Origin: Blautia wexlerae DSM 19850
GTDB lineage: Bacteria > Bacillota > Clostridia > Lachnospirales > Lachnospiraceae
Length of the DNA: 64,000 nucleotides
Reading direction: 5' to 3'
Assembly (NCBI RefSeq): GCF_025148125.1
Contig: NZ_CP102267.1
Span: forward strand, 4,288,501-4,352,500
The notes beneath the pieces were generated by a model. That model searched no databases. It was not told the DNA's origin and worked only from the letters and a program-made list of their open reading frames with translations. Both the position numbers and the translations under genes were made by a program. Below, one piece after another: positions 18,121 through 39,231 of this stretch (position 1 is the first letter of the stretch; each line of letters opens with the position of its first letter).

Positions 18121-18124
18121 TTTT

Positions 18125-19420: not shown

Positions 19421-19506
19421 AATCGTATGTCTCCTTTCGATATTAGACAATCGGAACTGATGAAATGCTTCGTGCGTGTAAGTATATCATAACTCCGGCT
19501 GTCTTA

Positions 19507-20136: not shown

Positions 20137-20166
20137 GCTGACTGCCTCCTTTTTCGGTATGTATGA

Positions 20167-20289: not shown

Positions 20290-20307
20290 TTGTAAGGAGG
20301 TGATTAT

Positions 20308-20538: not shown

Positions 20539-20678
20539 AAAGGCGGCTTCCAAAGAAACCGCCAAAGGTTCTATCAGACCAAAGCCATGATATACCTACA
20601 CGCAAGAAGATTATACCATGTGCTTCTTCTGATACGCAACCGAGAACTTATGTTTGCAAAAGAAAGGAGAATGTAATA

Positions 20679-20993: not shown

Positions 20994-21039
20994 TGGCAGA
21001 GGGGATGAGTTTTTCATTCCCTTCATTGCTTTTTCATGA

Positions 21040-21071
21040 AGGGCGCACTTATGGACAACCAGAGGTCGTCC
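21040..21071 (-). other. oriT: MobQ-type origin of transfer (oriT)
   Basis: Read on the minus strand: an 8-bp inverted repeat with one mismatch (21064-21071 / 21053-21060, 3-nt spacer), then TAAGTGCGCCCT (21051-21040). This is the inverted repeat plus nick core known for RSF1010/R1162-type MobQ systems. It stands about 250 bp before the MobA/MobL gene. A 119-codon open frame across it is not a credible gene. Confidence 0.8.
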
Positions 21072-21321
21072 CAATAAGTTTGCCACAAGTGTCAACCGGT
21101 CTGCGCTCACGCTTGCCGGGCTCGTTCCGTCGGCGGGGCTTTCAGCCAGACCTGCTCATGCCGCAGGAGGCACTCTTCGCCAGAGAGGCGCATTCCATGC
21201 AGGCTGCTATGCGCAGGGCACTCTTACGCAGAGGGAGTTCCGGCAATGCTGCTTTTTCTAAAACTGAAAGCAATGTTGCCGGAAATCTATGCCGGATACG
21301 TCAGAAAGGAGGAATCCAGAC

Positions 21322-23043: not shown

Positions 23044-23728
23044 AATATGCTATTTAACACAGGAACGGGATTATGCCCGGACACATCAGAAAATCGTAGA
23101 AATACCGGTAGAAAAGCCGGTACTCTATGAAAAATGTGAAGCCTGTAACCGGACAGCCTATCAGAATGCAAAAGCAAAATACGAAACACAAAAAGAGCGA
23201 CTTGCAGGACAGTATAAAGCAAAAACGGTAATGTTCCAAACAACCTTGTTCCTTCTTGCATGGTATTCGTTGACAACCACTCTTTTTCAGGCAGTACAGT
23301 CAGATATGTTCCTTGTCGATTGTAAATCATTCTTCAATGATTTAGCATCATTCATACAAACCTTTGTCGGATGGACGATTGATGCCGGGCATTCTGCGGC
23401 ACAGATTAGTACAAAAATTCCAAATGCTTTTATAGCCGGAATGGTATATTGGTTATTGCTAATATTGATTGTAGGAATATGTATGGCAGGAACAGGGATG
23501 CTGGCGATACTGATAGAAATAAAGGTTATAGAATTATATAAGAAAAACTGTTGGGATGTTATTACTCTACTAATGATACTGACAAGTGTTGCTATTGTCA
23601 TTTATTTTGGAGAATCAATCAAAAAAGTACTGTCAGTAAATCTTCTATTGCTTTTCGTACTTTCGCAGGGCGCATATGTTGGAATTAGATGTTATCTTAA
23701 AGTTTGGTTAGAAAAAAGACCATATTAG
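22763..23728 (+). CDS. DUF6040-like membrane protein
   Basis: 321 residues; the first 280 nt overlap mobL out of frame. A coiled-coil N-terminus is followed by VEIPVEKPVLYEKCEACNRTAYQNAKAKYE (two cysteines) and about four membrane helices (TTLFLLAWYSLTTTLFQ, FIAGMVYWLLLILIVGI, VITLLMILTSVAIVIYF, VNLLLLFVLSQGAYVGI). ATG 22763 has AAAGGA upstream. Recalled as DUF6040, a partner of MobL in clostridial elements; perhaps it docks the relaxosome at the membrane. Confidence 0.8.
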   Translation: MNESRESKNAEQLEELLLLTEEIQEELEQKEQLIVELKTQLSESLTLNEKLNKENRAGNIQALKNDLKLADRALRIEKEKLRSANVMIEECQDKICYLTQERDYARTHQKIVEIPVEKPVLYEKCEACNRTAYQNAKAKYETQKERLAGQYKAKTVMFQTTLFLLAWYSLTTTLFQAVQSDMFLVDCKSFFNDLASFIQTFVGWTIDAGHSAAQISTKIPNAFIAGMVYWLLLILIVGICMAGTGMLAILIEIKVIELYKKNCWDVITLLMILTSVAIVIYFGESIKKVLSVNLLLLFVLSQGAYVGIRCYLKVWLEKRPY

Positions 23729-23835
23729 TATTTTCAACTTACTGTATAGACAGTAAAATTACTCCATACCAGCCTAGTGAAAATTTACTGTATGAAAAGA
23801 AGTATTACAGAGAAAAAAGGCTGTAAAAACAGGAA

Positions 23836-23867
23836 CAGCCAGCCCGAAAGAATTTACGGACTGGCTG
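23836..23867. terminator. Bidirectional terminator between convergent genes
   Basis: Stem CAGCCAG/CTGGCTG extended by CCG/CGG, in the 195-bp gap between the DUF6040-like gene (+) and the ABC permease (-). A smaller GGCTG/CAGCC stem precedes it. Confidence 0.6.
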
Positions 23868-23923
23868 TATCAGCAGAGTAATGTAATTGTGGAGCTGACC
23901 GAGATATGAAAAGCTTTCTATCA

Positions 23924-26251: not shown

Positions 26252-26265
26252 AATTCCCACCTCCT

Positions 26266-26931
26266 TTAGCCAACAATTTTACCATCTTCAATCCGTACAA
26301 TGCGGTCTGCGAGTTGAGCGATCTCGTTGTTGTGAGTAATCATTACAATGGTCTGATTAAATTCTCCGCTGGTATGCTTCAAAAGCCCTAACACATCTGC
26401 ACTGGTCTTGCTATCAAGATTTCCGGTCGGTTCATCAGCAAGGATAATCGCAGGCTTCGTAATTAAAGCTCGTGCAATCGCTACACGTTGCTGTTGACCG
26501 CCTGAAAGATTGTTCGGCATATTTTCCAGTTTATCTTCTAAAGCCAACATATACACAACTTCGTCCATAAATTTCTGGTCTACTGTATCGCCATCCAGTT
26601 CCACAGGCAGGACGATATTTTCATATACATTCAAAATCGGAACCAGATTATAATTTTGGAAGATAAATCCGATGTTACGACGGCGGAAAATTGTCAATTC
26701 ATCATCATTCTTTTTTGCGAGTTCTTCTCCCCGTACAATCACGCTGCCGGAAGTGGGGGTATCAAGTCCTCCCATCATGTGAAGCAATGTAGACTTACCG
26801 CTGCCGGAAGTTCCAACTACGGCAACAAATTCTCCCTGTTCCACAGTAAAATTTACACCATTAAGGGCACGAGTAATATTTGGTTCTGTGCCGTAATACT
26901 TCTTTAAGTCGATTGTTTGTAAAATGCTCAT
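26266..26931 (-). CDS. ABC transporter ATP-binding protein (LolD/MacB type)
   Basis: 221 residues from ATG 26931. Walker A GTSGSGKS 40-47, signature LSGGQQQR 142-149, Walker [10 protein letters not shown] 162-170, D-loop NLDSK. Short with no extra domain, as in the MacB/BceA group. Expected to couple ATP hydrolysis to the two-module FtsX permease. About 150 bp separate it from the kinase gene upstream, enough for its own promoter, likely targeted by the linked response regulator. Confidence 0.9.
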
Positions 26932-27082
26932 ATTCAAATGCTCCTTTCAAGGCTTTCTATCTGTTGATAAAGCCATTGTAAACCACAAATGTTACACAAA
27001 TGTCCGAGATAGAAAAAATTTTTATCGAAAATCAGAGTGAAATGTTACAACGCTCGGACATTTCAAAAAAAGTGGTTATATC

Positions 27083-28114
27083 TTACCTTACAGGAAGCAT
27101 AATAGAAAATTCTGAGCCTTGCCTCAGCTCTGAAACAACCTTGATATAGCCCCCTTGCCTTGTTACAATCTCACGAGCCAAATACAAACCTATTCCCACA
27201 CCCTGTTGATCGTGTACTTCTTCCTCACGATAGAAGCGCCGGAAGATGGCAGCCTGATTGCTTTCTGAAATGCCCTTGCCGGTGTCGGTCACTTTGACCT
27301 CTACGTACATTTCCCACTGAACCACTGATACAGAAATCTTTCCACCTGACGGAGTGTATTTTACTGCATTGTCCAGCAGATTGAAAAGGGCTTCGCTTGT
27401 CCACTTGCTGTCATGGGAGATTATCAAATTTTCCGGGCAATCCACGGATACAGCAATTTCTTTTTTCTCTGCGGCATATACAATACTGCTCATGGCTTGT
27501 GCAAGCGTATGGAATAAGCTGCTGTCTTTCTTTTCTAATCGTATTGCTCCGGTTTCCAACCGGGACGTTTTAACCAGTGCTTGGAACAGAAAATCCAGTT
27601 TATCAGTCTGACTACGTATGCCTTGTAAAAAGTCCATCCGTTCTTCTTCTGAAACAGGCTTTGTTAAAAGTGTGTCCGTTACCATTTGCAAATTGCTGAC
27701 AGGCGTTTTAACTTGATGTGAAATATCAGAAATCAGCATTTGAAGCTCCTGTCGTTCCATGTCTACCTTGTGCCGGTTTTTCTGCATAATCTCATACAAC
27801 CGAATTAAGCGGTGGTTGATACGGGCAAAAAGAGTTTCACTATCATTTGACTTTTGTAATTCCTCGTTTCCATCAATCATGTTGTCCAGCGTCCGGCACA
27901 AATTAGAAGTAAAATGAGAAAGGCGTTTTCCAAAAATCAGCACCAATAGCCAAATCCAGAAAAACGCACAGAGTGTCAATGTTCCACCCACTATAAAAAT
28001 TCGTATATCCTGCATTATACCGCCGAAAATACCGGTAATTACCAGCATAGAGAAAACCATGCCAGCACTAACCAGTCTACAAATTTTCTTAGCAGAAAGG
28101 TTATTCAGATTCAT
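27083..28114 (-). CDS. Sensor histidine kinase
   Basis: 343 residues from ATG 28114 (GGAGG 9 nt upstream), overlapping the response-regulator stop by 4 nt. Two helices at about 14-34 and 39-61 with almost no extracellular loop, so stimulus sensing is probably within the membrane or through the transporter. HisKA with H133 (SDISHQVKTPVSNLQ), then HATPase motifs FNLLDNAVKYTP (N box), VTDTGKGIS and GVGIGLYLAREIV. Presumably reads drug flux or binding by the FtsX transporter. Confidence 0.9.
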   Translation of the reverse strand: MNLNNLSAKKICRLVSAGMVFSMLVITGIFGGIMQDIRIFIVGGTLTLCAFFWIWLLVLIFGKRLSHFTSNLCRTLDNMIDGNEELQKSNDSETLFARINHRLIRLYEIMQKNRHKVDMERQELQMLISDISHQVKTPVSNLQMVTDTLLTKPVSEEERMDFLQGIRSQTDKLDFLFQALVKTSRLETGAIRLEKKDSSLFHTLAQAMSSIVYAAEKKEIAVSVDCPENLIISHDSKWTSEALFNLLDNAVKYTPSGGKISVSVVQWEMYVEVKVTDTGKGISESNQAAIFRRFYREEEVHDQQGVGIGLYLAREIVTRQGGYIKVVSELRQGSEFSIMLPVR

Positions 28115-28800
28115 TTCTTTTCGCCTCCTGTCCATTGATACCCCATACCATAAACCGTTTTGATATATGTGTCGCCATCCGCTTCAATCTTACTGCGAAT
28201 ACGGCTGATAGAAGTAGTAAGGGTATGTTCATCTACATATTTTTCATCAACATCCCACAGTTTTTCTAAAAATTGTTGGCGAGTAAGTACCTGCTTCGGA
28301 TTTTTAAGAAATAGGTTCAACATTTTATATTCCATCGCAGAAAGTGCTAATGGTTTCCCGTTCAAACTTGCAAATTGTTCCGAAAAATCCAGAAACAAGC
28401 TACCATCCTCGTAAATATCCTTAGCTGGTTTGTGATGCTCCAACATAGCGAACATGGCTTTGATTTTTCGCTGCAAAGCACTAATCGAAAAAGGTTTCGT
28501 GATATAATCCACTGCACCAGCTTCATATCCCCGTATCTGATTGCTTTCCTGATCGTTGGCAGTTAGAAATATAACTACTGTATCAGGATGCTCTGGCTTG
28601 ATAAGACGGCATAGGTCATAACCATTTCCGTCTGGTAAATTTATATCCAGCAATACCAAATCAAAAATGTTTGTTTTTAATGATTCAGCGGCTGTCCTTG
28701 CATTCAGAACAGAAGTTATTGTGTAACCGTCCAATTCCAAATTATAAGTAAGCGTTTTATTCAAAAGATTATCATCTTCGACAATTAAAATATGCTTCAT
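28111..28800 (-). CDS. OmpR-family response regulator
   Basis: 229 residues from ATG 28800. Receiver with acidic pair E8-D9-D10, phospho-acceptor D52 (LVLLDINLPDGNG) and switch K near 101 (YITKPFSI); then a winged-helix DBD (ALSAMEYKMLNLFLKNPKQVLTRQQFLEKLW, TSISRIRSKIEADGDTYIKTVYGMGYQW). The longer open frame to 28908 is leader. First gene of the resistance-type module RR-HK-ATPase-permease. Confidence 0.92.
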   Translation of the reverse strand: MKHILIVEDDNLLNKTLTYNLELDGYTITSVLNARTAAESLKTNIFDLVLLDINLPDGNGYDLCRLIKPEHPDTVVIFLTANDQESNQIRGYEAGAVDYITKPFSISALQRKIKAMFAMLEHHKPAKDIYEDGSLFLDFSEQFASLNGKPLALSAMEYKMLNLFLKNPKQVLTRQQFLEKLWDVDEKYVDEHTLTTSISRIRSKIEADGDTYIKTVYGMGYQWTGGEKK

Positions 28801-28918
28801 ATTATCACTTCCTTTTCTTTTTGCAGATAGTATAACAGGCAAATGTCCGAGAATTGTTACAAGGACAAATATATTTTTCATTTTACAGCTTTTTTCTGTG
28901 TACTGCAATTTTATAAAA

Positions 28919-28951
28919 GAAAGGACAGCAGTGTCAAATTGCTGTCCTTTC
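28919..28951. terminator. Bidirectional terminator upstream of the response regulator
   Basis: Perfect 12-bp stem GAAAGGACAGCA/TGCTGTCCTTTC with a 9-nt loop and TTTTA on either side. Insulates the two-component operon from the DUF6061-like gene. Confidence 0.75.
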
Positions 28952-29049
28952 TTTTATCATAGCTGGTAGTGTAGAAGCGTGGGTTCATCATATCGGGTGT
29001 GGTATCTTTAACTACAGGAAACTCCCTACAACACTATCTCACTTCTTGC

Positions 29050-29289
29050 TTAATAAAGTTCTAATGAATCTTCTGTATCCACCCACATCTGTAAATTGCC
29101 ATCAAGATATAATCTTGCATATTCCAAAGGCTCATCCACAGCCAATGAAGTAAGCGCACATTCTGATCCATATGTGGTTTTTAAATTTTTTTCAGCTTCC
29201 CAGCAATCAATGCGAAGCATATATCCAGCACTTGTGTAAACATCAATACTATCGTGGTTTATATTATATTCTGCATAAATTGTTCTCAT
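29050..29289 (-). CDS. DUF6061-like small protein (79 aa)
   Basis: 79 residues: YAEYNINHDSIDVYTSAGYMLRIDCWEAEKNLKTTY, then ALAVDEPLEYARLYLDGNLQMWVDTE-like ending. Matches my memory of DUF6061, small acidic proteins common in gut Firmicute genomes and mobile elements. No known activity. Last gene before the right end of the nested element; the 314 bp that follow hold only att-like sequence. Confidence 0.75.
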   Translation of the reverse strand: MRTIYAEYNINHDSIDVYTSAGYMLRIDCWEAEKNLKTTYGSECALTSLAVDEPLEYARLYLDGNLQMWVDTEDSLELY

Positions 29290-29603
29290 CGTATCTTATC
29301 TCCATTTTCTTTTGATAATCAGTTACAGAGTTAAATATCGAAAACATTTCAATCAGTTCACCATGTCGTTATTGTTATATGTTATATTGTGTTATGAAAT
29401 TTTCTTTCCCTTAATTTTTCCCATATTAAGGTTCATGAAAAGCAATGGGAAAATGTAACACAAGGGAAAGAGTAAGGGAAAGTTCACTTGCTACAAACTT
29501 AGTATTTTCAAGGGTTTGCGAAGAATTTGATAATCAAATATAACAGTTATTAAATTTCCTAAAATATGTGAAATATCAACTGGAATTTTCTTTTTAGAAT
29601 GAA
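29290..29603. other. Candidate right attachment region (no gene)
   Basis: AT-rich, with arms TTTCCCTTAATTTTTCCC (29411-29428) and ACAAGGGAAAGAGTAAGGGAA (29460-29480 region) that resemble those at 18064-18120, and the 11-bp AACTGGAATTT at 29578-29588 that matches the left side. No coding frame of merit. Confidence 0.45.
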
Positions 29604-30074
29604 TTATTTAATTTCTACAATAGCACCATATTTCGTATGCGGAAGATATTGTACCTTTAAATAAGTATTTTTATCAATATACCTTGAAAATACTGTGATT
29701 TCGATTTCATCATCTTTAACTTTATCATATAGAAAAACACTTCTTCTTTCAGAAGATATATCTGCACCACCATGAGATTGTTCAGTTACATATCCTTCTG
29801 CATAACTATACTGTTTGTTTATGATGTAAGGCATATCTAAAACAAAATCTTTCAAATATAAGATTAAAAGAATAGCTACTATAACAAGAATGGTATTAGC
29901 CAATCGAAGAAATATTATATCATTTTTTCCAGTATATTCTTTTTTTATCGCTTCTTTATCAAAAAATATCGAATAGATAAGTTTTCTTTTTTTAATTAGA
30001 TAGATAATGCAAGCAATTAACGCTATAACAAATAATGAAACTCTTATAAACAATCTAAATATAGCAAAATCCAT
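29604..30074 (-). CDS. Cassette gene 1: two-helix membrane protein with exposed C-terminal domain
   Basis: 156 residues. Helix 1 at about 8-30, helix 2 at about 55-75 (NTILVIVAILLILYLKDFV), then an ~80-residue domain ending KVQYLPHTKYGAIVEIK. Clearly paralogous to 33712-34158: both have DxPYLI/DIPYLL, an EGYVTEQS/GEVTQGA turn, SSERR/NSERR and YLPHTKYG/YLPHTEYG. The gene is driven by the cassette promoter at 30111-30139 and preceded by leader repeat R2. No known family recognised; an immunity-type membrane protein is one guess. Confidence 0.75.
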   Translation of the reverse strand: MDFAIFRLFIRVSLFVIALIACIIYLIKKRKLIYSIFFDKEAIKKEYTGKNDIIFLRLANTILVIVAILLILYLKDFVLDMPYIINKQYSYAEGYVTEQSHGGADISSERRSVFLYDKVKDDEIEITVFSRYIDKNTYLKVQYLPHTKYGAIVEIK

Positions 30075-30110
30075 AATATCATCCCCTTAAACTTCAAGTT
30101 TGTTGCTTAC

Positions 30111-30139
30111 ATTATACTTCATCAACCTAAAGAATGGAA
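30111..30139 (-). promoter_or_regulatory. Cassette promoter, copy 1
   Basis: -35 TTCCAT (30134-30139), spacer TCTTTAGGTTGATGAAG, -10 TATAAT (30111-30116). Same sequence recurs at 30933, 34606 and 35509. Confidence 0.8.
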
Positions 30140-30162
30140 GATTTTTTCTTGCCTCCCAAAGC

Positions 30163-30289
30163 AAAAGCACCTGTCATTTTCAAAACGAAGACAGCAAGTG
30201 TCTTAGAGTTCCACATTCTATTTTGAGTGCAAAAAAGCAGGAGAACTTTTCAGATTTCCTGCTTAGTAAAGCTGTGAAGATTTAATTGT
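30163..30289 (-). repeat. Leader repeat R2
   Basis: About 90% identical to R1 (17839-17967), with both terminator hairpins kept. It follows cassette gene 2 and precedes the promoter of cassette gene 1, so it ends the first transcript. Confidence 0.85.
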
Positions 30290-30347
30290 AGTCAGTTTTT
30301 CTTATACCATCCGAAATTTATACTTTAATGTTCTCTCATAACAAAAA

Positions 30348-30857
30348 TCAATTTTGTCCTCCAACAAAAATACCGTTTGGGGGATTATCCCATATAAAAT
30401 TATCCTCAGCCACTTCGCTCTCCAATGCAATTTCAATTTTATATATCCCCACATTTTGGGCATTTTCATCATCCTGACTATACATATAAAAATTCATACA
30501 ATACCTTTCCTTCTCTGTCAATATGAGATACATACCATCCAATTCCGTTTTCCTTTTACCATAGTTGCTTTCACTTGATGATGCACAATCGCCCTCAAAC
30601 CTTTGGATACTGCCCTCAATATAATCGAAAAAAGCAGAGATTTCAGTGTCTAAATTCTCAATGTTCTTTTTGCTTTCTTCGGAAAATAGAGATTTTAGTT
30701 TCTCTGAATCCTGTTGCTTACATGCCTCGATAATTTGTTGACACATCTTATCCGTTTCATTTTGTTCAGAGCTAAACCAGTCATTGAAATATTTGTTAGA
30801 GCAGCCTGTTAAACCGAGTATAATAATCACACTGGAAAGCAACAATACTTTTTTCAT
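30348..30857 (-). CDS. Cassette gene 2: DUF5104-like lipoprotein
   Basis: 169 residues from ATG 30857. Signal peptide KKVLLLSSVIIILGLTGC with lipobox LTGC, so anchored to the outer membrane face. The mature domain (ADKMCQQIIEACKQQDSEKLKSLFSEESKK type, then FFDYIEGSIQRFEGD and a C-terminal VGIYKIEI strand) matches DUF5104, a NTF2-like fold in my recollection. Such lipoproteins are often found beside toxin or bacteriocin loci. Flanked by R3 and R2. Confidence 0.8.
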   Translation of the reverse strand: MKKVLLLSSVIIILGLTGCSNKYFNDWFSSEQNETDKMCQQIIEACKQQDSEKLKSLFSEESKKNIENLDTEISAFFDYIEGSIQRFEGDCASSSESNYGKRKTELDGMYLILTEKERYCMNFYMYSQDDENAQNVGIYKIEIALESEVAEDNFIWDNPPNGIFVGGQN

Positions 30858-30932
30858 ATAATTACATCCTTTACTGAATAATTGCAAAATCACTTATTGG
30901 ATTAAGGTCATTACAAAAAATTTCTTACTATC

Positions 30933-30961
30933 ATTATACTTCATCAACCTAAAGAATGGAA
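30933..30961 (-). promoter_or_regulatory. Cassette promoter, copy 2
   Basis: -35 TTCCAT (30956-30961), 17-bp spacer identical to copy 1, -10 TATAAT (30933-30938). Confidence 0.8.
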
Positions 30962-30984
30962 GATATTTTCTTACTCCCTAAAGC

Positions 30985-31041
30985 AAAAGCACCTGTCATT
31001 TTCAAAGTGAAAACAGCAAGTGCTTTAGAGTTCCATATCCT
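30985..31041 (-). repeat. Leader repeat R3 (second hairpin only)
   Basis: Copy of the 3' hairpin of R1/R2, placed over the last codons and stop of the Mob/Pre gene. Marks the point where the first cassette array entered between mob and primase. Confidence 0.8.
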
Positions 31042-32257
31042 GTTTTTTGCTTTTTGCCTGATCCGTCCGGCTGACTTCACGCTCTGCTATTTCTTTCTTT
31101 TTGCGGCTCAACTGCTCTATAATGGAACTTTTAGCTTTCTTCTTGATTTGCTCCGTTCCGGCTTTTTTGACCTCCGGTTTCATCAGCGTGGTTTGGATTT
31201 TCTGAATGGTTGATTTCATAGCGTTTGTGATTCTGGCAATCACGCCATCCAATCGTTTCACTGCATACTCAACTTCTTTCTTTGAAGCCTTACGCTCAGG
31301 GGAGAGAACCCACGCTTTAGACTGCTCCACCAGCTTAATATCCTCCTTGTGCGTTTCCAGTTTTACAGTATCAGCAACGACCTCAACCGCCTTGTCATAG
31401 GCAATATCGGCAACCTCGTCCACCAGAGCTTCCACATCTTCAATCTTCATCGTGAGTTCTTCCAACTTTTGCTCCTGTGCTGCCAGTTGCTCCTTTTGCT
31501 TGAAAAGAATATAGTCCTGTTTTTCCAGATAAGCACGACCACCATATTCGGGTTCTTCTTCCAGTTGTAAGCCATGCTTTTTCGCCACATCGAACAGCAA
31601 CACTCGGCAGGCTGAATCGAAAGTCATCTTGCGGTTATTTTTTCTTCCGACAGGCTTCTCCGGTTCCGGCAGTTCAAATCCCAGTGCTTCCAAAGCCTTT
31701 TCCTGTTGTGGGGCAATCTCCCCATATTGATTTTCACAGTCGAACACATGACGCTCGTGAATATGAGGGGTGCTTTCATCCAAGTGCAGCGCCCAATTCA
31801 GGATATGGACATGAGAGCCGAAACGCTCATTTACGATTTCCATAAATTCTGTGACAATCTCAATGAGCAGTTCCGGTGGAACATGATTATCAAGTGTTCC
31901 AATCTGATAGACCGTTTCCTCTGGACAGGTCTTTTTGCTTTTGAGCAAATCACCGGTTTCCTTATTCCTTTCAGGGTGTCGGTTCTTCACATTTCTTTCG
32001 TTCTGTCCGGTTACAAAATCACGATACCGCTGACGATAAAAAAGCTGTTCCACATCTTCAAAAGTGGCAGACAGCTCATTTTCCTTATCGGGATTTTTGA
32101 AATTGCGGAAGCCATTGTAACAGTCCCAATAGAGATTTTGTTTGGCTCGTTCTTCGTCAATGTGTTCGCTGTTGGCAATGTCAAAACTGCGGTCATTGTG
32201 CTTCGGATTATAAACGCCATTCTTTCCAGCTCGTCCATTGTGCCTTGTTAATTTCAC
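31025..32257 (-). CDS. Mob/Pre (MobV) relaxase, TnpZ-like
   Basis: 410 residues from GTG 32257 (GGAGG 7 nt upstream). N-terminal HNGRAGKNGVYNPKHNDRSFD; the relaxase histidines are in HILNWALHLDESTPHIHERHVF (about residues 148-170), the Mob_Pre signature. The C-terminal ~180 residues are coiled coil. A longer frame to 32578 runs through the leader and oriT region and is rejected. In Tn4451, TnpZ of this family allows mobilisation by a helper. Followed immediately by cassette array 1 and preceded by array 2. Confidence 0.9.
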   Translation of the reverse strand: MKLTRHNGRAGKNGVYNPKHNDRSFDIANSEHIDEERAKQNLYWDCYNGFRNFKNPDKENELSATFEDVEQLFYRQRYRDFVTGQNERNVKNRHPERNKETGDLLKSKKTCPEETVYQIGTLDNHVPPELLIEIVTEFMEIVNERFGSHVHILNWALHLDESTPHIHERHVFDCENQYGEIAPQQEKALEALGFELPEPEKPVGRKNNRKMTFDSACRVLLFDVAKKHGLQLEEEPEYGGRAYLEKQDYILFKQKEQLAAQEQKLEELTMKIEDVEALVDEVADIAYDKAVEVVADTVKLETHKEDIKLVEQSKAWVLSPERKASKKEVEYAVKRLDGVIARITNAMKSTIQKIQTTLMKPEVKKAGTEQIKKKAKSSIIEQLSRKKKEIAEREVSRTDQAKSKKQDMEL

Positions 32258-32344
32258 ATGAGTTCCTCCTTTTCTTTTTGATTTCCCCGACAGGGGAGAA
32301 GGGCAGCGAAGCTGATTCCTTGCGGCTTTCTGCGTCAAGTAATA

Positions 32345-32379
32345 CCCAGTACTAAGTGGCGAAACGCCACTTAACTGGG
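32345..32379. other. Candidate oriT of the Mob/Pre relaxase
   Basis: Inverted repeat CCCAGT-AC-TAAGTGGCG-AAA-CGCCACTTA-ACTGGG: 15 paired bases with one 2-nt bulge and a 3-nt loop, about 90 bp upstream of the relaxase start. Mob/Pre relaxases nick at hairpins just upstream of their genes. It is inside a non-coding leader of about 340 bp. Confidence 0.55.
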
Positions 32380-32544
32380 CAAGGCTGCCGCCCTTGACCT
32401 GCACAGGGATATTGCATTCCCTGTACCCATGCACAAAGGGTTGCACCCTCTGTACTCCCGCTCGAACAAACTGACTTCGCCCCGTCTCAAGCTCTGTCAG
32501 TCCCTTCGGTTTTACAAAACAGTCCACCGGACTATTTTGCAAAA

Positions 32545-32631
32545 AAGAAAAACCGACGCATGATCGCTTTACGCTCAATACATCGGTTTCTTTATCTGAC
32601 CTTGACGGTCATATTCAGTTGTGGCAGATTA
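32545..32631 (-). repeat. Mob leader repeat, part D (terminator half)
   Basis: On the minus strand it has stem AAACCGA/TCGGTTT with a long loop, then TTTTTCTTTTTT. Copies at 33576-33662 and 34755-34832 end the other cassette transcripts. Here it separates cassette gene 3 from the Mob/Pre leader. Confidence 0.8.
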
Positions 32632-32645
32632 GCCAATTTGAAAAA

Positions 32646-33395
32646 TTACTCTGGCACATCTACTGAATAACTTAGATTGTTTCCTCTCTTGTCGCTCTTT
32701 AAATCATCATAATACCATAGATACATCGTTCTGTCATATACATTGATTTCAATAACACCATCTGGCTTTTGACCTTCTACTTCTAATGAGTAAATTTCCT
32801 TATCATGTGCATAGCCAAAAACAAATCTGGTATCTGGATAATTTGGATTCAAGTCCTGTTGAAAATCACTTAATTTTAAAGATGAACGAATTAGTTCTGT
32901 AATATCAGATATAAGAATGCTATCCGCTTTAGTTGTAACCGGTGTAGCATTCATAAATGCATATTGTACACTTGCTTCCTCCACCTGTTTTTTGCAGCGT
33001 GCCATCACAAAACCTTGAACGGGATCGTTATCGCTTCCTGCCCGATAGAAAATAGTATCATACTGTTTGCCATTCCATATATGCAATATTTCATCAACAT
33101 GATTAAGAAAATCTTCTGGAACAGAAAATTCTTCATTTTCAGCATTCAAAGGAGAATTCAAAATAGCTTCTTCGACAGAACTATAATATATGAGTTCAGA
33201 ATCCTTTTTATCGTAATCACTCAAATTGAATTCGACATATGCATTGTCTTTATTGTCATCTTCCGGAACATAAGTATAACGACCATTTTCAATATGGTCA
33301 TCATAATCAACAAACAGTCCAATACATATCAGCGCTGCAAAAATCAAAAAAACTATTCCTACAATGATTAGCAATATTTTCAAAAATTTTTTCAT
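32646..33395 (-). CDS. Cassette gene 3: membrane-anchored exported protein
   Basis: 249 residues from ATG 33395. One N-terminal helix (KKFLKILLIIVGIVFLIFAAL) anchors a ~220-residue outside domain with acidic stretches (VEFNLSDYDKKDSELIYYSS) and aromatic ending MYLWYYDDL. Not recognised. It has its own promoter at 33429-33457, unlike the shared cassette promoter, but lies between two copies of the Mob leader repeat. Confidence 0.7.
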   Translation of the reverse strand: MKKFLKILLIIVGIVFLIFAALICIGLFVDYDDHIENGRYTYVPEDDNKDNAYVEFNLSDYDKKDSELIYYSSVEEAILNSPLNAENEEFSVPEDFLNHVDEILHIWNGKQYDTIFYRAGSDNDPVQGFVMARCKKQVEEASVQYAFMNATPVTTKADSILISDITELIRSSLKLSDFQQDLNPNYPDTRFVFGYAHDKEIYSLEVEGQKPDGVIEINVYDRTMYLWYYDDLKSDKRGNNLSYSVDVPE

Positions 33396-33428
33396 ACAAA
33401 AGTCCACCTTCTTGCTTCATTTCAGTAA

Positions 33429-33457
33429 ATTATATCATACCGATATGAACAATTCAA
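33429..33457 (-). promoter_or_regulatory. Promoter of cassette gene 3
   Basis: -35 TTGAAT (33452-33457), 17-bp spacer, -10 TATAAT (33429-33434). Confidence 0.6.
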
Positions 33458-33489
33458 TTCACGCTCTATCAAGTAGTTTTTTACTTACC

Positions 33490-33662
33490 TATAACGCACA
33501 TTTCCGCAAAATCCATAGTCTCCGATACTTTCCTCACAGGCGATATACAGTCGGAATTCTGTCAGCTCATGAAATAAGAAAAACCGACGCATGATCGCTT
33601 TACGCTCAATACATCGGTTTCTTTATCTGACCTTGACGGTCATATTCAGTTGTGGCAGATTA
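33490..33662 (-). repeat. Mob leader repeat, full copy A
   Basis: About 170 bp, more than 90% identical to copy B (34671-34832). The left part (CGCACATTTCCGCAAAATCC start) also matches part C (35576-35629) and the right part matches part D (32545-32631). It occupies the gap between cassette genes 3 and 4; no gene inside. Confidence 0.85.
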
Positions 33663-33711
33663 CAGGTAATCTACAAATTCCCCAAAACAAAATAGGATAT
33701 TTATTTTTATT

Positions 33712-34158
33712 CTATTCAACTACATACCCATATTCTGTGTGTGGTAAATACCTTACAGTTATCTTATCTCCTAAATCGCTACCTGTTCCCCAATATTTTA
33801 ATGAATGTTCTTCTCCAGTTTTCTCATCTCTAATATGTATTCTTCTTTCACTATTAGAGTTTTCTCCTGACATTGCACCTTGTGTAACTTCTCCGGTAAC
33901 TTCAACTAAATTGTTAGATAGTAAATAAGGTATATCCAAGCAACAAGGAACAGTTATAAATATACCGAGAATCAATAACCCAACAACTGCCATCACATTG
34001 ATTATTTTTTCCCATTTTTGATATTTTATTTTTTCTTCTTCATTGACAGCCTTTCGTTTTATAAACTTCCCATTTTTCTTTCTATGCAATACATACATAA
34101 TTAAGACTATAAATGATACTATAATCACTCCAAAAGTTCTAAACATCAATAATGCCAT
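33712..34158 (-). CDS. Cassette gene 4: paralogue of cassette gene 1
   Basis: 148 residues: two helices (about 7-27 and 55-75), then an outside domain with DIPYLLSNNLVEVTGEVTQG, NSERRIHIRDEKTGEE and the ending RYLPHTEYGYVVE. Shares the SERR and YLPHTxYG marks with 29604-30074 though overall identity is low, so they are divergent members of one family. AAAGGAG upstream. Read with cassette gene 5, 28 nt before it. Confidence 0.75.
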   Translation of the reverse strand: MALLMFRTFGVIIVSFIVLIMYVLHRKKNGKFIKRKAVNEEEKIKYQKWEKIINVMAVVGLLILGIFITVPCCLDIPYLLSNNLVEVTGEVTQGAMSGENSNSERRIHIRDEKTGEEHSLKYWGTGSDLGDKITVRYLPHTEYGYVVE

Positions 34159-34186
34159 AAATTTGTACTCCTTTCAAAGCGACACG

Positions 34187-34567
34187 CTATTTATTAACAG
34201 CTTTATCAGCTAATCTTTTATCTCCCCATGGCGTTTTCAGCATAGGCTCATTATCAATAATTCCTGCTCTTAAAATTTCAAGGGGTTTTTCTAATTGTAA
34301 GATGTTTTTATTATCTATAATAATAGCAGTTTGAAATTCCTCAAAACTTTCAAAAACTCTGTCTTGAAATATAAAAGATATATTTTCTTTACATTCCTCT
34401 GCGTTAGCAGGTAAAACACAGGAACCCATCACATATTTTTTCTCATTATAGGAAAACTCAATAAGAGTAAAAGCCATATCATTATCATAATCAGACTTGA
34501 TAATTTCCATTAGATCTTTTGCTTCAATAATGAGCGTTGGCTTTTCATTTTTCTTAAAACCAAACAT
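34187..34567 (-). CDS. Cassette gene 5: small cytoplasmic protein
   Basis: 126 residues from ATG 34567 (GGAGGTG upstream). No signal or membrane helix. Alternating strands (PTLIIEAKDLMEII, FTLIEFSYNEKKYVMGS) and a helix followed by LQLEKPLEILRAGIIDNEPML. Not recognised. First gene after the cassette promoter at 34606-34634; with gene 4 it forms the only two-gene cassette. Confidence 0.65.
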   Translation of the reverse strand: MFGFKKNEKPTLIIEAKDLMEIIKSDYDNDMAFTLIEFSYNEKKYVMGSCVLPANAEECKENISFIFQDRVFESFEEFQTAIIIDNKNILQLEKPLEILRAGIIDNEPMLKTPWGDKRLADKAVNK

Positions 34568-34605
34568 GAATAACACCTCCAAGAATTAACTTTATCTTAT
34601 TTTTC

Positions 34606-34634
34606 ATTATACTTCATCAACTTAACGAATGGAA
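34606..34634 (-). promoter_or_regulatory. Cassette promoter, copy 3
   Basis: -35 TTCCAT (34629-34634), spacer TCGTTAAGTTGATGAAG, -10 TATAAT (34606-34611). Confidence 0.8.
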
Positions 34635-34670
34635 GAAAAATTTGTGTGCAGAGTTCCTGTTCAAGCCTTG

Positions 34671-34832
34671 TAACGCGCATTTATGCAAAATCCATAGTCA
34701 CCGATACTTTCCTCACGGGTGATATACAGTCGGAATTCTGTCAGCTCATGAAATAAGAAAAACCGACGCATGATCGCTTTACGCTCAATACATCGGTTTC
34801 TTCATCTGACCTTGACGGTCATATTCAGTTGT
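34671..34832 (-). repeat. Mob leader repeat, full copy B
   Basis: Full-length copy between cassettes 5 and 6, with the AAACCGA/TCGGTTT terminator. Its outer ~20 bp (GAGTTCCTGTTCAAGCC) are shared with the sequence before part C. Confidence 0.85.
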
Positions 34833-34860
34833 CTAACATCGTACTGTTATAAAATCTATG

Positions 34861-35430
34861 TCATTTACGATTTTTCTTATGCTGATTTGCCCAGTAAGAT
34901 TTTACAGGGATTCTTCTTCTTTTTATGTCCTCCATAAATTCTTCTTTGTCAATATTACTATCAATGGTAAATAATTTTTCTCCATTTACATATACACGCA
35001 TAGAACCTTTCTTTCTCTCGCAATAGGTAATATCTTCAAAGTGAAAAGTTCTCTTTCTTCCAGAAGTTGAACGCCATGTGATTTCATCTCCGTTCACTTC
35101 CAGTTTCCACATAATCATGTTCAATGAGCCGATTAAAGAAACAATAAAGAAAATACTAAAACCAATTGGTGGCAATAAATCATCTTGTTGAATAGCACTG
35201 GCTACCGTAGCTCCCCCAAAAAGAAACACCGCCAATACAAAAAACATAGTAAGTACTTTTTCGGTTTTTATTATATAATGCGTCCTAATTATTCCCTTTT
35301 TCTGTTCTTCCTCTCGTTCTTTAGCTCTCTTTTGTTGAAGATTTACAAGATATTTCAAAAGAAGAAGTACAACTAAATAGGGACCTATTTGTGTAATTAT
35401 ATTCAAACACATTCGTAAAAAATTATTCAT
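34861..35430 (-). CDS. Cassette gene 6: DUF6560-like membrane protein
   Basis: 189 residues. Helix 1 at about 12-30, helices 2 and 3 at about 58-78 and 88-108, then a PH-like tail (KLEVNGDEITWRSTSGRKRTFHFEDITYCERK, MRVYVNGEKLFTIDSN). This matches DUF6560 as I recall it. ATG 35430 has GGAGGG upstream. Driven by the cassette promoter at 35509-35537. Confidence 0.75.
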   Translation of the reverse strand: MNNFLRMCLNIITQIGPYLVVLLLLKYLVNLQQKRAKEREEEQKKGIIRTHYIIKTEKVLTMFFVLAVFLFGGATVASAIQQDDLLPPIGFSIFFIVSLIGSLNMIMWKLEVNGDEITWRSTSGRKRTFHFEDITYCERKKGSMRVYVNGEKLFTIDSNIDKEEFMEDIKRRRIPVKSYWANQHKKNRK

Positions 35431-35508
35431 TTTTGCCCTCCATAGTTCCAGCTATATAAAAATGATTGTTTGAAATCGAGTATTAAAAACCTCAATTTTT
35501 CATATCTC

Positions 35509-35537
35509 ATTATACTTCATCAACTTAAAGAATGGAA
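35509..35537 (-). promoter_or_regulatory. Cassette promoter, copy 4
   Basis: -35 TTCCAT (35532-35537), spacer TCTTTAAGTTGATGAAG, -10 TATAAT (35509-35514). Confidence 0.8.
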
Positions 35538-35575
35538 GAAAAAATTTTGTGTACAGAGTTCCTGTTCAAGCCTTG

Positions 35576-35629
35576 TAACGCACATTTCCGCAAAATCCAT
35601 AGTCCCCGATACTTTCCTCACAGGCGATA
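35576..35629 (-). repeat. Mob leader repeat, part C (distal half)
   Basis: Matches the left half of copies A and B and then stops at CAGGCGATA. Together with part D it would rebuild one uninterrupted leader, which suggests that cassettes 3-6 were inserted or duplicated into it. Confidence 0.75.
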
Positions 35630-35694
35630 GGCAACGGTCAAAACATCAGGTCTGCACCTGACATTTTAACCGCATATCAGCCCTGATTATCACA

Positions 35695-35985
35695 TTATCC
35701 CTGCTGGCTGTTCAGCCCATGCTTTTTCGCATATTCGCTGGCTTTCTGTCTGCGTTCCTCACTGTAAGGCGGCAGGAAACGGATAGACAGACGGGACTTT
35801 GCCAGCTCATAAGAAACACCGCCTTGAACATTGGATTTTTCCAGTCGGCAAAGGTCAGGGTACTTCTTAGCAAAAGCAGCCAACCTCTTTTTCAATCCGG
35901 CGTTGTGGGTGTAGATATTTGCCTTGTCCTCGCCCTCATTAAAGAGAACGATTGTTTCTTTCTCAATCTTCGTCAGTCTCGTCAT
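35695..35985 (-). CDS. Conserved transposon protein, paralogue of ICE2 57591-57872
   Basis: 96 residues: LTKIEKETIVLFNEGEDKANIYTHNAGLKKRLAAFAKKYPD and the ending RFLPPYSEERRQKASEYAKKHG. The ICE2 protein directly after topB has the same plan (LTPIEQETILLYNQAED, VYTHDRKLMEKLTRL, VREPYSNQRRKAASERAK). Probably a small nucleic-acid-binding or regulatory protein; no activity known. Overlaps the neighbouring gene start-to-stop by 23 nt. Confidence 0.75.
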   Translation of the reverse strand: MTRLTKIEKETIVLFNEGEDKANIYTHNAGLKKRLAAFAKKYPDLCRLEKSNVQGGVSYELAKSRLSIRFLPPYSEERRQKASEYAKKHGLNSQQG

Positions 35986-36211
35986 AGCAGCCCTCCCTAT
36001 GGTTTTTCAACACACGCAGCTTGCAGTAAAAGCAGCGATACCACCTTTCAACACCCTCAGCACTCAGCTTGACGGAAAGCATATAAAACAGCTTCTTCGC
36101 CACTGGATCGGGTGCAAGGGCAGCTACCATACGCAAACGCTCGACAGTTGCTTTCAGGTTCGGACAGCCAAAGGCATAAAGGGCTTCCATTTCATTCCGG
36201 TTCATCTTCAT
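35963..36211 (-). CDS. Conserved transposon protein (82 aa)
   Basis: From ATG 36211 (AAGGAGG 8 nt upstream), 82 residues: NEMEALYAFGCPNLKATVERLRMVAALAPDPVAKKLF, then GVERWYRCFYCKLRVLKNHRE. Helical; resembles small proteins that accompany TnpV in clostridial elements. The leader holds a perfect 8-bp hairpin (36245-36279) followed by TTTT, like the other backbone genes. Confidence 0.7.
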   Translation of the reverse strand: MKMNRNEMEALYAFGCPNLKATVERLRMVAALAPDPVAKKLFYMLSVKLSAEGVERWYRCFYCKLRVLKNHREGCYDETDED

Positions 36212-36240
36212 TGTGTTTTCCTCCTTAAAGTTTGATAAAT

Positions 36241-36280
36241 GAAAAGCGACAGACACTTCATAAGGAAATACCTGTCGCTT
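36241..36280 (-). terminator. Leader hairpin before 35963-36211
   Basis: Stem AGCGACAG/CTGTCGCT, 19-nt loop, then TTTTCATTT on the minus strand and AAGGAGG a little further. Could end tnpV transcription or attenuate the next gene. Confidence 0.6.
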
Positions 36281-36320
36281 CGTTTACGATACAAATTTGT
36301 TGGTTTTGGACTTGATAAAA

Positions 36321-36704
36321 TCAGCAGTAAATCATTTCCTGTCTGATGATTTCTTCGGCTCGGTTACGGATAGAGTTCATGGACTGTACCCACAACATCT
36401 GATTGTCTGCTTTCATGGTTTCGGTCACGCCCTCGGCTTGTTTCATCTGCTCAATGATAAGGCTGCACCTTTCCGTTGCCTGTTCGTCCAGGTCAGCAAG
36501 GTAAGTATGCAGTTCGCCGGATAAACAGAGGGCAGAGAACCTTGTAGGGCGGTACTGCTCCAAATATGTCCTGTGCAGTCTGCCCCACATACCGATAGGG
36601 CGGTGTTCCTCCGGTAGCTTCAAGTCCGGCACATAGTAATCGCCCACAAGAACATAGTCCAGACCGTTGCTTTTGTCATGGATTCGTGATTTCAATTCTG
36701 TCAT
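36321..36704 (-). CDS. tnpV: TnpV-family transposon-encoded protein
   Basis: 127 residues: GLDYVLVGDYYVPDLKLPEEHRPIGMWGRLHRTYLEQYRP is the TnpV signature (YxxPDLxLPE...GxxGRxRxxYLxxHRP), followed by a helical half (ERCSLIIEQMKQAEGVTETMKADN). The start overlaps the tnpX stop by 4 nt. A second TnpV is at 61982-62338 in ICE2. Function in Tn4451 unknown. Confidence 0.88.
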   Translation of the reverse strand: MTELKSRIHDKSNGLDYVLVGDYYVPDLKLPEEHRPIGMWGRLHRTYLEQYRPTRFSALCLSGELHTYLADLDEQATERCSLIIEQMKQAEGVTETMKADNQMLWVQSMNSIRNRAEEIIRQEMIYC

Positions 36705-38221
36705 GCTATTTTTTCTCCTTTCACTTTTTGCCGATTTGATTTGCTTGTGACGTTCTGTTCAACACACACATTGCTATCAGAACTTTTTTCTTCTGCTATA
36801 CGCTCATGCTCCGCAAATTCTTTTGATTTCTCACGAATCTTTTTCATATACTTACGATTGGATTCTCGTTTTCTGCGAAGTCGTTCCGCCTCTTTTTCAG
36901 CAGCAATCCTTTCTTCCTCTGTTGGTTCATGCTGCTCCACAGGTACTTGAAATTGCCCGACATAGTTAAGATATATCTCCACCTCTGTGGTGCGGTCTGC
37001 ACCTTTTCCTTGTGGCTCGTGAACCAGAATTTTGTCGATAAATTCATTTATCATGGCAGGAGTAAGTTCTGTAATATTCTCATACTTTTTAACCAGCTTT
37101 AGAAAACGCTCCACATTATTTTGACCGCCTATAATCCGTTGCATATCAGCGGTGTCAGTCTCAATAATCTTGTTCAGCTCGTTCTGCTCATTTTCATAAT
37201 CAGTAAGCATACTCTGAAAAAGTCTGTCCGGCAATCTTCCAATCACATTATCTTCATAGATTTTCCTGATAAGCATATCCAGTTCGTGAACTCGCTTCTG
37301 ATTTCTTTCAATGCGGTTTTTTACAGTTTCAGAAACAGCAATATCTTTCATCGCCGATTCTTCTTGCAGAGAATAAACAAACTCCCGCTCATTCAAAGAA
37401 ACATAATGGCAAGTCTCCTGTATGGTTTTCAGAATGATGCTTTTAAGTGCTTTTGTTGAAATATGGTGGCAAGTACAATGCCGGTCATATCTCTGACAAC
37501 CCAGATTATATGTGGAACATTCATAACAATCTGCCGGATTGGAATGACTTGTCCTTTTTTCGCCTTTGGCAGTATAGTATATTCTTTCTCGCCCTTTCCG
37601 CTGCCTGTGATTATACATCGGCGCACCACAATCAGCACAGTAAATCTTTCCGGTCAGAACATTAGGCTCGCCCATAGGATCGGCTTTTCTTACATTCTGT
37701 CTTAACTTTTGAGCAAGCAGCCATGTTTCTTCATCGACAATAGGCTCTTGTGTATCATCAAAAACCACCCAATCTTCCTTGTCTGCCCTTTTCGTCTTTT
37801 TGTCCTTATAGGAATTTTTGAATGTCCTGAAGTTGACAGTCTTTCCAATATACTCTGGTCGGGCAATCAGAGTAGTAACCTGATTTCCTCGCCACATATA
37901 CGGATTTTCTTTGTCATAGTTGCTTGCATGATTTCCAAGTCCCTTTTTTCCAAGATAATAAGACGGTCTTTCTATTTTTTCTTCTGAAAGTTCTCTTGCT
38001 ATCTGATAAGGTCCTTTTCCCTCAATAGTCATGCGATAAATTCTGCGGACTACTTCAGCAGCTTCTTCATCAATAATCCAATGGTCGGGGTTTTCGGGGT
38101 CTTTCAAATAGCCGTATGGTGGGATATTACTTGTATGAGCGTTGCCGGAAGAACCTCTGGATTTCAGTACAGCTTTAATTTTCTTACTTGTGTCCCTGAC
38201 AAACCACTCATTGAACAGAGG
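36701..38221 (-). pseudogene. tnpX: TnpX-like large serine recombinase, catalytic domain missing
   Basis: The frame is open from 38221: LFNEWFVRDTSKKIKAVLKSR, then the Recombinase domain (PPYGYLKDPENPDHWIID), a zinc ribbon (CADCGAPMYNHRQ ... CSTYNLGCQRYDRHC) and a long coiled coil. The N-terminal resolvase domain with the catalytic serine (first ~130 residues) is absent; a TAA and ICE2 sequence begin at 38222. The missing part should lie beyond the far end of ICE2, so excision of ICE2 could restore the gene. Confidence 0.88.
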
Positions 38222-38345
38222 TTATTCGGGAAAGGGAAAGACAAACAAGCAGAAATCCAGTATTCATGCGGGTTTGTGGCGGGATGGCTCCCCAAAAGCT
38301 GAACACAAATAAGACAAGCAGCAATACAATCGCATATCGTTTCTC

Positions 38346-38384
38346 AGGGAGAATGTTGATTTACGTCACATTCTCCCTTTTTTT
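38346..38384 (+). terminator. Terminator/attenuator before parA
   Basis: Perfect 11-bp stem AGGGAGAATGT/ACATTCTCCCT followed by TTTTTTTA, 26 nt before the parA start. It lies between the element end and the first gene, so it may block read-through from flanking DNA. Confidence 0.75.
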
Positions 38385-38409
38385 ATTCCAGAAACGAGGT
38401 GATTGCAAA

Positions 38410-39231
38410 GTGAACACACAAATTATCGCCATCGCCAACCAGAAAGGCGGCGTTGGCAAGACAACGACCTGTGCCAACCTGGGGATCGGGCTGGCGCAGG
38501 CCGGACGAAAGGTGCTGCTGATCGACGGAGACCCGCAAGGCAGCCTGACCATCAGCCTGGGCCATCCCCAACCAGACAAGCTGCCCTTTACCCTGTCCGA
38601 CGCGATGGGCCGTATTCTGATGGATGAGCCGCTGCGACCCAGCGAGGGTATCCTGCACCACCCGGAGGGTGTTGACCTGATGCCTGCGGACATCCAGTTG
38701 TCTGGTATGGAGGTTTCTCTGGTGAACGCCATGAGCCGCGAGACCATCTTGCGGCAGTATCTGGACACCGTAAAGGGACAGTATTCCCATATCCTCATTG
38801 ATTGCCAGCCCTCTCTGGGGATGCTCACGGTCAATGCCCTGGCAGCCGCCAATAGGGTCATAATTCCCGTCCAGGCAGAGTATCTGCCCGCCAAGGGTTT
38901 GGAACAACTGCTCCAAACAGTAAATAAGGTGAAGCGGCAGATCAACCCAAAACTCCAGATTGACGGCATCCTGCTGACGATGGTGGACAACCGCACCAAC
39001 TTTGCCAAGGAGATCGCCGCCCTGATGCGGGAGACCTACGGCAGCAAAATCAAGGTGTTCGCCACCGAGATTCCCCATTCTGTTAGGGCAAAGGAAATCA
39101 GCGCCGAGGGCAAGAGCATTTTTGCCCATGACCCCGGCGGCAAGGTGGCTGAGAGCTACAAAAATCTGACGCAGGAGGTGACGAAACTTGAAAAGCAGCG
39201 CGAAAAAAGTAGAGCTGGCATCGGTAGATGA
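38410..39231 (+). CDS. parA: ParA/Soj-type ATPase
   Basis: 273 residues from GTG 38410. Deviant Walker A KGGVGKTT near residue 11-18, Walker A' (ILIDCQPSLGML) near 125, Walker B-like VIIPVQAEY. Partition ATPase that acts with the ParB encoded in overlap at 39188. In ICEs of this family it is thought to stabilise the excised circle. A longer frame to 38266 is leader. Confidence 0.9.
   Translation: MNTQIIAIANQKGGVGKTTTCANLGIGLAQAGRKVLLIDGDPQGSLTISLGHPQPDKLPFTLSDAMGRILMDEPLRPSEGILHHPEGVDLMPADIQLSGMEVSLVNAMSRETILRQYLDTVKGQYSHILIDCQPSLGMLTVNALAAANRVIIPVQAEYLPAKGLEQLLQTVNKVKRQINPKLQIDGILLTMVDNRTNFAKEIAALMRETYGSKIKVFATEIPHSVRAKEISAEGKSIFAHDPGGKVAESYKNLTQEVTKLEKQREKSRAGIGR

Follow-up and report, generated by a model that had tools for sequence, protein, structure and literature searches.

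We analysed a 64,000-nucleotide stretch of the genome of Blautia wexlerae DSM 19850 (assembly GCF_025148125.1, contig NZ_CP102267.1, positions 4,288,501-4,352,500), referred to below, at its full length, as the window. It holds a mobilizable element with a serine recombinase, a MobV-like relaxase, a primase and a VapE-like protein, in which two cargo sites flank the relaxase gene, mob. Both sites are occupied by arrays of small gene cassettes, and these arrays and their variation are established. The original prediction had placed six small genes in the two gaps beside mob, and all six open reading frames (ORFs; 131-253 codons) were found where expected, on the minus strand. Array 2, from orf96 to mob, consists of DUF6560, g131, g148 and g253, and array 1, from mob towards the primase gene, of DUF5104 and g156.

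29604-30074, minus strand: g156, membrane protein with two helices and a C-terminal beta domain (ORF, structure model)
30348-30857, minus strand: DUF5104 lipoprotein gene (PF17117, E-value 4.3e-25)
31025-32260, minus strand: mob, MobV/Pre-like relaxase gene (weak Mob_Pre match, below cut-off; anchor used to find relatives)
32646-33407, minus strand: g253, one-helix anchored protein (ORF; model with a predicted local distance difference test score, pLDDT, of 84.8; contexts of relatives)
33712-34158, minus strand: g148, two-helix membrane protein of the g156 family (ORF, family comparison)
34187-34582, minus strand: g131 (no predicted helix, no family match)
34861-35430, minus strand: DUF6560 membrane protein gene (PF20197, E-value 3.2e-90)
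35695-35985, minus strand: orf96, conserved backbone gene closing array 2 (comparison of relatives)
17168-17848, minus strand: primase gene (CHC2 zinc finger), closing array 1 in relatives (PF01807)

The g156 model (pLDDT 77.9) shows two long helices followed by five strands, and g156, g148 and a 141-amino-acid (aa) protein of the related element L008 form one family (relatives are cited by locus, L, or genome, G). At least one helix was predicted in 15 of the 18 distinct cassette proteins examined (a rough count), and none in g131 and two L008 proteins. Guanine-cytosine (GC) content is 25.3-34.9 % in the six cassette genes, 43.8-49.2 % in the backbone genes and 40.1 % in the recombinase gene.

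A promoter-like 30-mer precedes five of the six genes, and the sixth, g253, has a promoter-like site of its own.

30111-30140, minus strand: 30-mer copy 1, before g156 (sequence search)
30933-30962, minus strand: 30-mer copy 2, before DUF5104 (sequence search)
34606-34635, minus strand: 30-mer copy 3, before g131-g148 (sequence search)
35509-35538, minus strand: 30-mer copy 4, before DUF6560 (sequence search)
33429-33457, minus strand: g253 promoter-like site, TTGAAT-17-TATAAT (promoter scan)

The four copies in the window compare with none in 100 shuffles, and a 32-base version of the 30-mer had four matches in the entire 4.69-Mb genome, all of them in these arrays, with no control match. Its -10 box is perfect (TATAAT) and its -35 box poor, which is why a simple sigma-70 scan did not list it. 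We retain from the original prediction the four near-identical copies serving five genes, and regard the 30-mer as a likely promoter from which transcription would start.

The cassettes are separated by direct repeats, i.e. a 162-nucleotide repeat at 33492 and 34671 (96 % identity), a 129-nucleotide repeat at 30096 and 30918 (86 % identity) and related copies at 32461, 33457, 34636 and 35541. They resolve into the following units, here designated A, B and R.

32270-32544, minus strand: mob upstream region (kept in close relatives)
32545-32640, minus strand: A copy 1, native mob leader (repeat and relative comparison)
33572-33657, minus strand: A copy 2, terminator-like hairpin (fold z -4.85)
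34752-34838, minus strand: A copy 3, terminator-like hairpin (fold z -3.97)
33465-33560, minus strand: B copy, leader DNA (repeat comparison)
34636-34724, minus strand: B copy (repeat comparison)
35541-35694, minus strand: native leader downstream of orf96, B-related (repeat comparison)
30961-31023, minus strand: R copy 1, mob terminator hairpin (fold z -3.26 for 30965-31034; the only copy where the site is empty)
30139-30200, minus strand: R copy 2, duplicated mob 3' end with hairpin (87 % identity to copy 1; fold z -0.13)
17841-17894 (G000:C1:4306341-4306394), minus strand: R copy 3, cut off from the array by a nested insertion (sequence search)
30230-30275, minus strand: terminator-like hairpin closing the DUF5104 cassette (fold z -2.66; absent from the empty sites of L070 and L010)

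Folding against shuffles supports a hairpin in two of the A copies, in one R copy and where the DUF5104 cassette ends; the second R copy is unsupported, and a stretch of A copy 1 taken without its 3' arm gave a z of -0.90. The A and R hairpins were not listed by a terminator scan. The repeats are copies of host leader DNA, as had been proposed: A is the leader native to mob, and B has its relative in the leader behind orf96. R had been called the primase leader and consists of the last mob codons and the mob terminator hairpin, although in empty elements its single copy also leads into the primase gene. One frame of the B repeat (33465-33560, 34636-34724, 35541-35629) resembles by eye a protein tail ending FCGNVRY.., as if it were the remnant of an old gene.

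A relaxase scan of 84,980 species genomes yielded 25 loci, and 49 of the 397 host-family genomes searched had a match, mostly diverged. The close relatives number 17, including the window and one plasmid record (L208), and both anchors were present in 14 of them for array 1 and in 14 for array 2 (L067, L068 and L080 repeat L005, L006 and L021). Array 1 is empty in three of the 14 (L010, L025, L070), where mob, one R hairpin and the primase gene follow each other with 36 bp between the mob and primase matches. Three others hold one cassette: DUF5104 in L011 and L069 (gap of 858-859 bp) and, in L012, a 76-aa ORF counted as a cassette on the basis of its 30-mer. DUF5104 and g156 occur together in seven (the window, L005, L006, L007, L009, L015 and L208), with g156 out of frame in L007, a gap of 1592-1657 bp in L005, L006, L007, L009 and L015, and the same genes in L208 as in L005. 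The last, L008, carries a different and larger set. By sequence reading, a cassette in a filled array starts directly behind the hairpin, and at its end the final mob codons and the hairpin are repeated, in a new copy of about 54 bp.

Array 2 occurs in seven configurations in its 14 elements: DUF6560 with g253 in six (L005, L006, L011, L069, L070, L208); DUF6560, g131-g148 and g253 in two (the window, L007); a 158-aa gene, two tandem copies of g131-g148 and g253 in L008; a 215-aa gene with g131-g148 in L009; a DUF6973 protein with a 285-aa protein in L010 and L025; a 255-aa gene in L013; and a g148-like gene in L015. None of the close relatives was found to have an empty array-2 site. Gene content thus differs while flanks and repeats stay constant, and the fixed order of the same six genes that would have spoken against the original prediction was not observed. 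Among 11 diverged relatives with orf96 and mob anchors, nine have gaps of 447-508 bp without cassettes, L074 carries two DUF6560 genes with 93-95 % repeats between the anchors, and L077 (1456-8951, the array 2 site) holds a resolvase-like protein together with two large ones (1070 and 1162 aa) that look restriction-modification-like by eye. From these array-poor relatives and the contents of L074 and L077, the arrays seem to have been gained in a single lineage, at a site open to other cargo as well.

Two close pairs were compared along their length. The window and L005 share 99-100 % identity over DUF6560 and 100 % over mob, but in L005 all of the g131-g148 unit is missing and g253 is represented by a different allele, the two elements switching from one content to the other at the repeats. 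Between L069 and L070, identity is 98-100 % over mob; beyond it, they differ by one clean 823-bp insertion, which is followed by 95-100 % identity. Divergence was further compared after setting aside L012, L020, L029 and L074 (partial or diverged). Across four carriers, divergence is 0.3 % in g131 and 0.5 % in g148, against an average of 2.7 % in the mob genes of these carriers; g156 differs by 0.3 % among seven carriers, against 1.8 % for their mob genes. Since all three cassette genes are closer than mob in the same carriers, they appear to have spread laterally and recently. The other values were 1.4 % for DUF5104 (n=9), 7.9 % for g253 (n=9), 8.5 % for DUF6560 (n=8) and 2.7 % for mob over 14 elements. 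Between L069 and L070, variation in g253 is patchy, i.e. nonsynonymous (dN) and synonymous (dS) divergence reach 0.146 and 0.50 in residues 134-253 and 0.003 and 0.04 before them, which is consistent with recombination importing alleles.

Cassette parts were also found elsewhere. In 299 family genomes the 30-mer had 15 matches in seven genomes and no control match, and all 15 were free of mismatches although three were allowed; six of the seven genomes carry the element or its mosaic relative L074. In the seventh, G555 (L103), leader DNA and the 30-mer precede a gene that looks acetyltransferase-like by eye, behind one that looks GMP-synthase-like, also by eye. In G119 (L085), the 158-aa cassette of L008 lies alone in an unrelated chromosome, with 558 of 621 aligned positions identical; it starts at the 30-mer and ends inside the A hairpin. 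A slightly looser pattern had no match in 103 other genomes of the same order. One IMG/VR contig carries a DUF6560 cassette, and no DUF6560 relative was found in the phage collection.

We consider it probable, with some reservation, that the element carries two arrays of self-contained cassettes reshuffled at repeats, whose products are most likely orphan immunity proteins. Each cassette would be a largely self-contained unit made of the promoter-like 30-mer, one or two short genes and a terminator-like hairpin. As the DNA between cassettes copies the element's own leader or terminator, each array forms a ladder of homologies of about 50-200 bp. Unequal or inter-element crossing-over at these repeats, presumably of RecA type, would add, remove, duplicate or swap cassettes and leave mob, orf96 and the primase gene undisturbed. 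The idea that arrays grow, and also shrink, at leader repeats agrees with the tandem double unit of L008 and with the one-cassette differences. The products, mostly membrane-anchored or lipoproteins, would then act at the cell envelope to neutralise polymorphic toxins that come from neighbouring gut Firmicutes.

The immunity suggested in the original prediction is supported by the outside contexts of DUF5104 and of the g253 family, and more weakly by those of DUF6560. For DUF5104, adjacency makes an immunity role the best supported of the set. A search of 120 family genomes gave 18 matches in 11 genomes, and a DUF4474 gene or fragment lies directly upstream of DUF5104 in four of 13 loci outside the window. 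RHS-repeat proteins with variable tips are an established form of polymorphic toxin, and in L155 such a protein (1145 aa, DUF4474 tip) is followed by four DUF5104 lipoproteins, the first of them sub-threshold. VWA proteins with DUF4474 tips stand directly ahead of DUF5104 in L148 and L152, and in L150 a DUF4474 fragment precedes it near the contig start. A reverse search in 20 chosen genomes found five DUF4474 matches, three of them followed by DUF5104. DUF4474 (PF14751) was absent from all five element carriers searched (G000, G458, G479, G508, G518), so that DUF5104 would be an orphan there.

For g253, the contexts give moderate support to a putative immunity role. The family has 11 matches in seven of 200 genomes. 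Three relatives occur in L158, two of them 12 and 132 bp behind toxin-tip-like remnants, which are related to each other (47 % identity over 66 residues). The relative in L191 carries a fused YezG-like immunity domain (E-value 8.4e-18), and the row of small genes in which it lies includes DUF6560 and a distant relative of the 184-aa cassette of L013. L194 holds two relatives, one broken, with DUF6560 and ankyrin genes nearby, and L192 one relative in another mobile element. A 181-aa ORF before the L194 relative had been considered WXG/LXG-like, which neither Pfam nor NCBIfam supported. DUF6560, with 20 matches in 15 of 120 genomes, weakly suggests immunity: three of 14 listed contexts are toxin- or immunity-like clusters (L157, L158 and L163), and in L163 the DUF6560-bearing ORF follows an RHS-like end (by eye). 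The g156 family had a match in five of 130 genomes, mostly weak, one of them (L188) in a row with DUF6560-like genes; the genes of L169 and L189 are outside the listed contexts.

Several observations weigh against a general immunity role. Nine of the 13 outside DUF5104 loci had no toxin beside DUF5104, and five of these nine encode longer proteins (315-401 aa). The three of five in the reverse DUF4474 search do not come from a random sample, since the 20 genomes were chosen, partly for DUF5104; the other two matches (G340 and G472, high-scoring) adjoin metallophosphoesterase-like genes (by eye) and not DUF5104. The toxin-tip label of the L158 and L008 fragments and the RHS label of L163 were given by eye, and Pfam returned no family over cut-off for the fragments tested. 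The g253 relative of L193 had no toxin neighbour, no toxin partner was found for g131, g148 or g156, and DUF6560 alone is no immunity marker, 11 of its 14 listed contexts being without a toxin. The cassettes of L010 and L025 in array 2 and the acetyltransferase-like gene of L103 are not immunity-like. Cassette dN/dS was 0.08-0.35, apart from 1.04 in g156, which derives from 0.3 % differences, so that positive selection is not clear. The g253 and g156 models had no informative match among PDB folds, and PDB searches by sequence and by fold gave nothing useful; PADLOC, run on ten proteins, returned two weak matches. LXG toxins were also tried as partners: in the same 20 genomes PF04740 had no gene above cut-off. 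Its three sub-threshold hits all came from G402, where by eye one belongs to a long exported protein and the other two to chemoreceptor-like ORFs, and this candidate was dropped.

Three other explanations were weighed. The repeats could mark two safe landing sites of a general cargo hot spot, with mixed gene functions among which immunity would be one of several. The DUF6973 and 285-aa proteins of L010 and L025, the acetyltransferase-like gene behind the 30-mer in L103, the resolvase-like gene with the 1070- and 1162-aa proteins between orf96 and mob in L077, and the nested element with a tyrosine integrase and a MobA/MobL gene inside the window's array 1 would all suit such a hot spot, but a predicted helix in 15 of 18 cassette proteins, even as a rough count, is one-sided for mixed cargo, and we hold this explanation to be unlikely. 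Distinctly less plausible is an integron-like, site-specific mobility in which an enzyme, perhaps the serine recombinase of the element, would recombine DNA at the 30-mer or at the hairpins. The ends of the solo cassette of L085 at the 30-mer and inside a hairpin, the leader and 30-mer ahead of another gene in L103, and the invariance of the 30-mer are what one would expect of such sites, yet the lengths of the duplicated segments, from about 54 bp upwards, agree with homologous recombination, and outside the element or its mosaic relative the 30-mer occurred in only two genomes of the two samples searched.

The position of the cassette genes next to mob would be accounted for if the arrays served entry or surface exclusion, small membrane proteins and lipoproteins blocking related conjugative elements. 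The DUF5104 protein does show weak matches to the EexN and TraV lipoproteins (E-values 0.00098 and 0.0031, both sub-cut-off); it scored 19 bits against a cut-off of 33 for NF033894, and the other five proteins had no Eex match. Elsewhere, however, DUF5104 lies directly behind polymorphic toxins (L155, L148, L152) and a g253 relative stands in a row with a YezG-like domain (L191), and exclusion has no obvious need for so many unrelated families. We hold this to be the least likely of the three.

With cassettes of orphan immunity genes reshuffled at repeats as the preferred reading, the arrays can be set beside known systems. The likeness to the recombinase-associated acquired interbacterial defence (rAID) clusters of Bacteroidales that had been proposed holds for the co-oriented short genes (rAID: at least two, of about 100-300 codons; here six of 131-253 codons), the low GC content (rAID: below 41 %) and the conserved intergenic motifs (here the A, B and R repeats and the 30-mer). 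It fails on the defining tyrosine recombinase upstream of the array: the recombinase upstream (36701-38107) is of the serine type, and the integrase at 18125-19450 belongs to the nested insertion. The arrays would thus work like rAID clusters without being members, because that recombinase is missing. They further differ in that each unit has its own promoter-like 30-mer and hairpins, the intergenic DNA is copied from the element's leaders, and the two arrays stand on either side of a relaxase gene, in an element of Firmicutes. Integrons exchange small gene units between mobile elements at repeated sites; compared with integron arrays, the cassettes described here have their own promoter-like sequence and backbone-derived repeats.

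Staphylococcal antitoxin islands, according to PMC12744356, group orphan exiCD and other immunity genes of the type VII secretion system, some for membrane proteins, in toxin-less strains; here the genes come as modular cassettes carried by a mobilizable element, with a candidate toxin of the DUF4474 type and not of the LXG type. Tn4451-type integrative mobilizable elements combine a serine recombinase and a MobV-like relaxase with resistance and other cargo (PMC5704250), and the present element resembles them in its large serine recombinase (5' part missing in the window) and perhaps in its MobV-like relaxase, whose matches are sub-cut-off; such cassette arrays are not among the cargo described in the available portion of that source. 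In the literature searched, the names DUF5104, DUF6560 and DUF4474 were absent and such arrays on conjugative elements were not described.

Should the products indeed act in immunity, the arrays would be a conjugative equivalent, in gut Firmicutes, of the rAID clusters of Bacteroidales, and their repeats would offer a way to list the cassette repertoire from sequence alone. The candidate toxin-immunity pairs are DUF4474 with DUF5104 and the L158-type tip with the g253 family. A broader proposal, possible but in our judgement rather doubtful, is a Firmicutes interbacterial-immunity cassette system in which promoter-gene-terminator units with common ends circulate among mobilizable elements and chromosomes, and in which the two landing sites beside the relaxase let each conjugation deliver or update an antitoxin set without an integron-type integrase.

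The remaining backbone was also examined. The relaxase scored an E-value of 0.0031 for Mob_Pre and 0.75 for MobV, both under cut-off; in PLSDB, a 267-kb plasmid record with the same element is typed MOBV, the responsible gene being unspecified.

36701-38107, minus strand: large serine recombinase gene, 5' part absent from the window (PF07508, PF14287, PF13408)

Homology to all seven relatives compared ends at 38212 in the recombinase region, and their sequence continues upstream. We rejected 38212 as the element border; it is the cut-off point of the window's recombinase gene. With a recombinase lacking its 5' part, the window copy of the element may have lost its own movement. A ParA gene (38266) adjoins the cut-off recombinase gene (36701-38212).

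A nested 11.6-kb insertion (18000-29577) parts array 1 from the primase gene in the window. It contains a tyrosine integrase (18125-19450) and a MobA/MobL relaxase (21289-23043), and had no long match in the seven relatives compared. By eye it also carries ABC-transporter-like and two-component-like genes, and it is bounded by the 11-bp direct repeat AACTGGAATTT. An Rfam scan of 28000-38500 gave no match.

Array 1 of the Blautia element L008 (11314-15036) comprises a 149-aa toxin-tip-like fragment (by eye), a g156 relative, a 155-aa protein, a 329-aa DUF6560 protein and a helix-turn-helix-like gene. The host genome has a second, diverged mob relative (L076, G000:C1:215805-217088; 69 % DNA identity), with about 10 bp between the mob and primase matches and therefore no array 1. 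In L025, about 1.36 kb (8408-9768) are inserted in the mob upstream region, yielding a 909-aa ORF that runs into mob.

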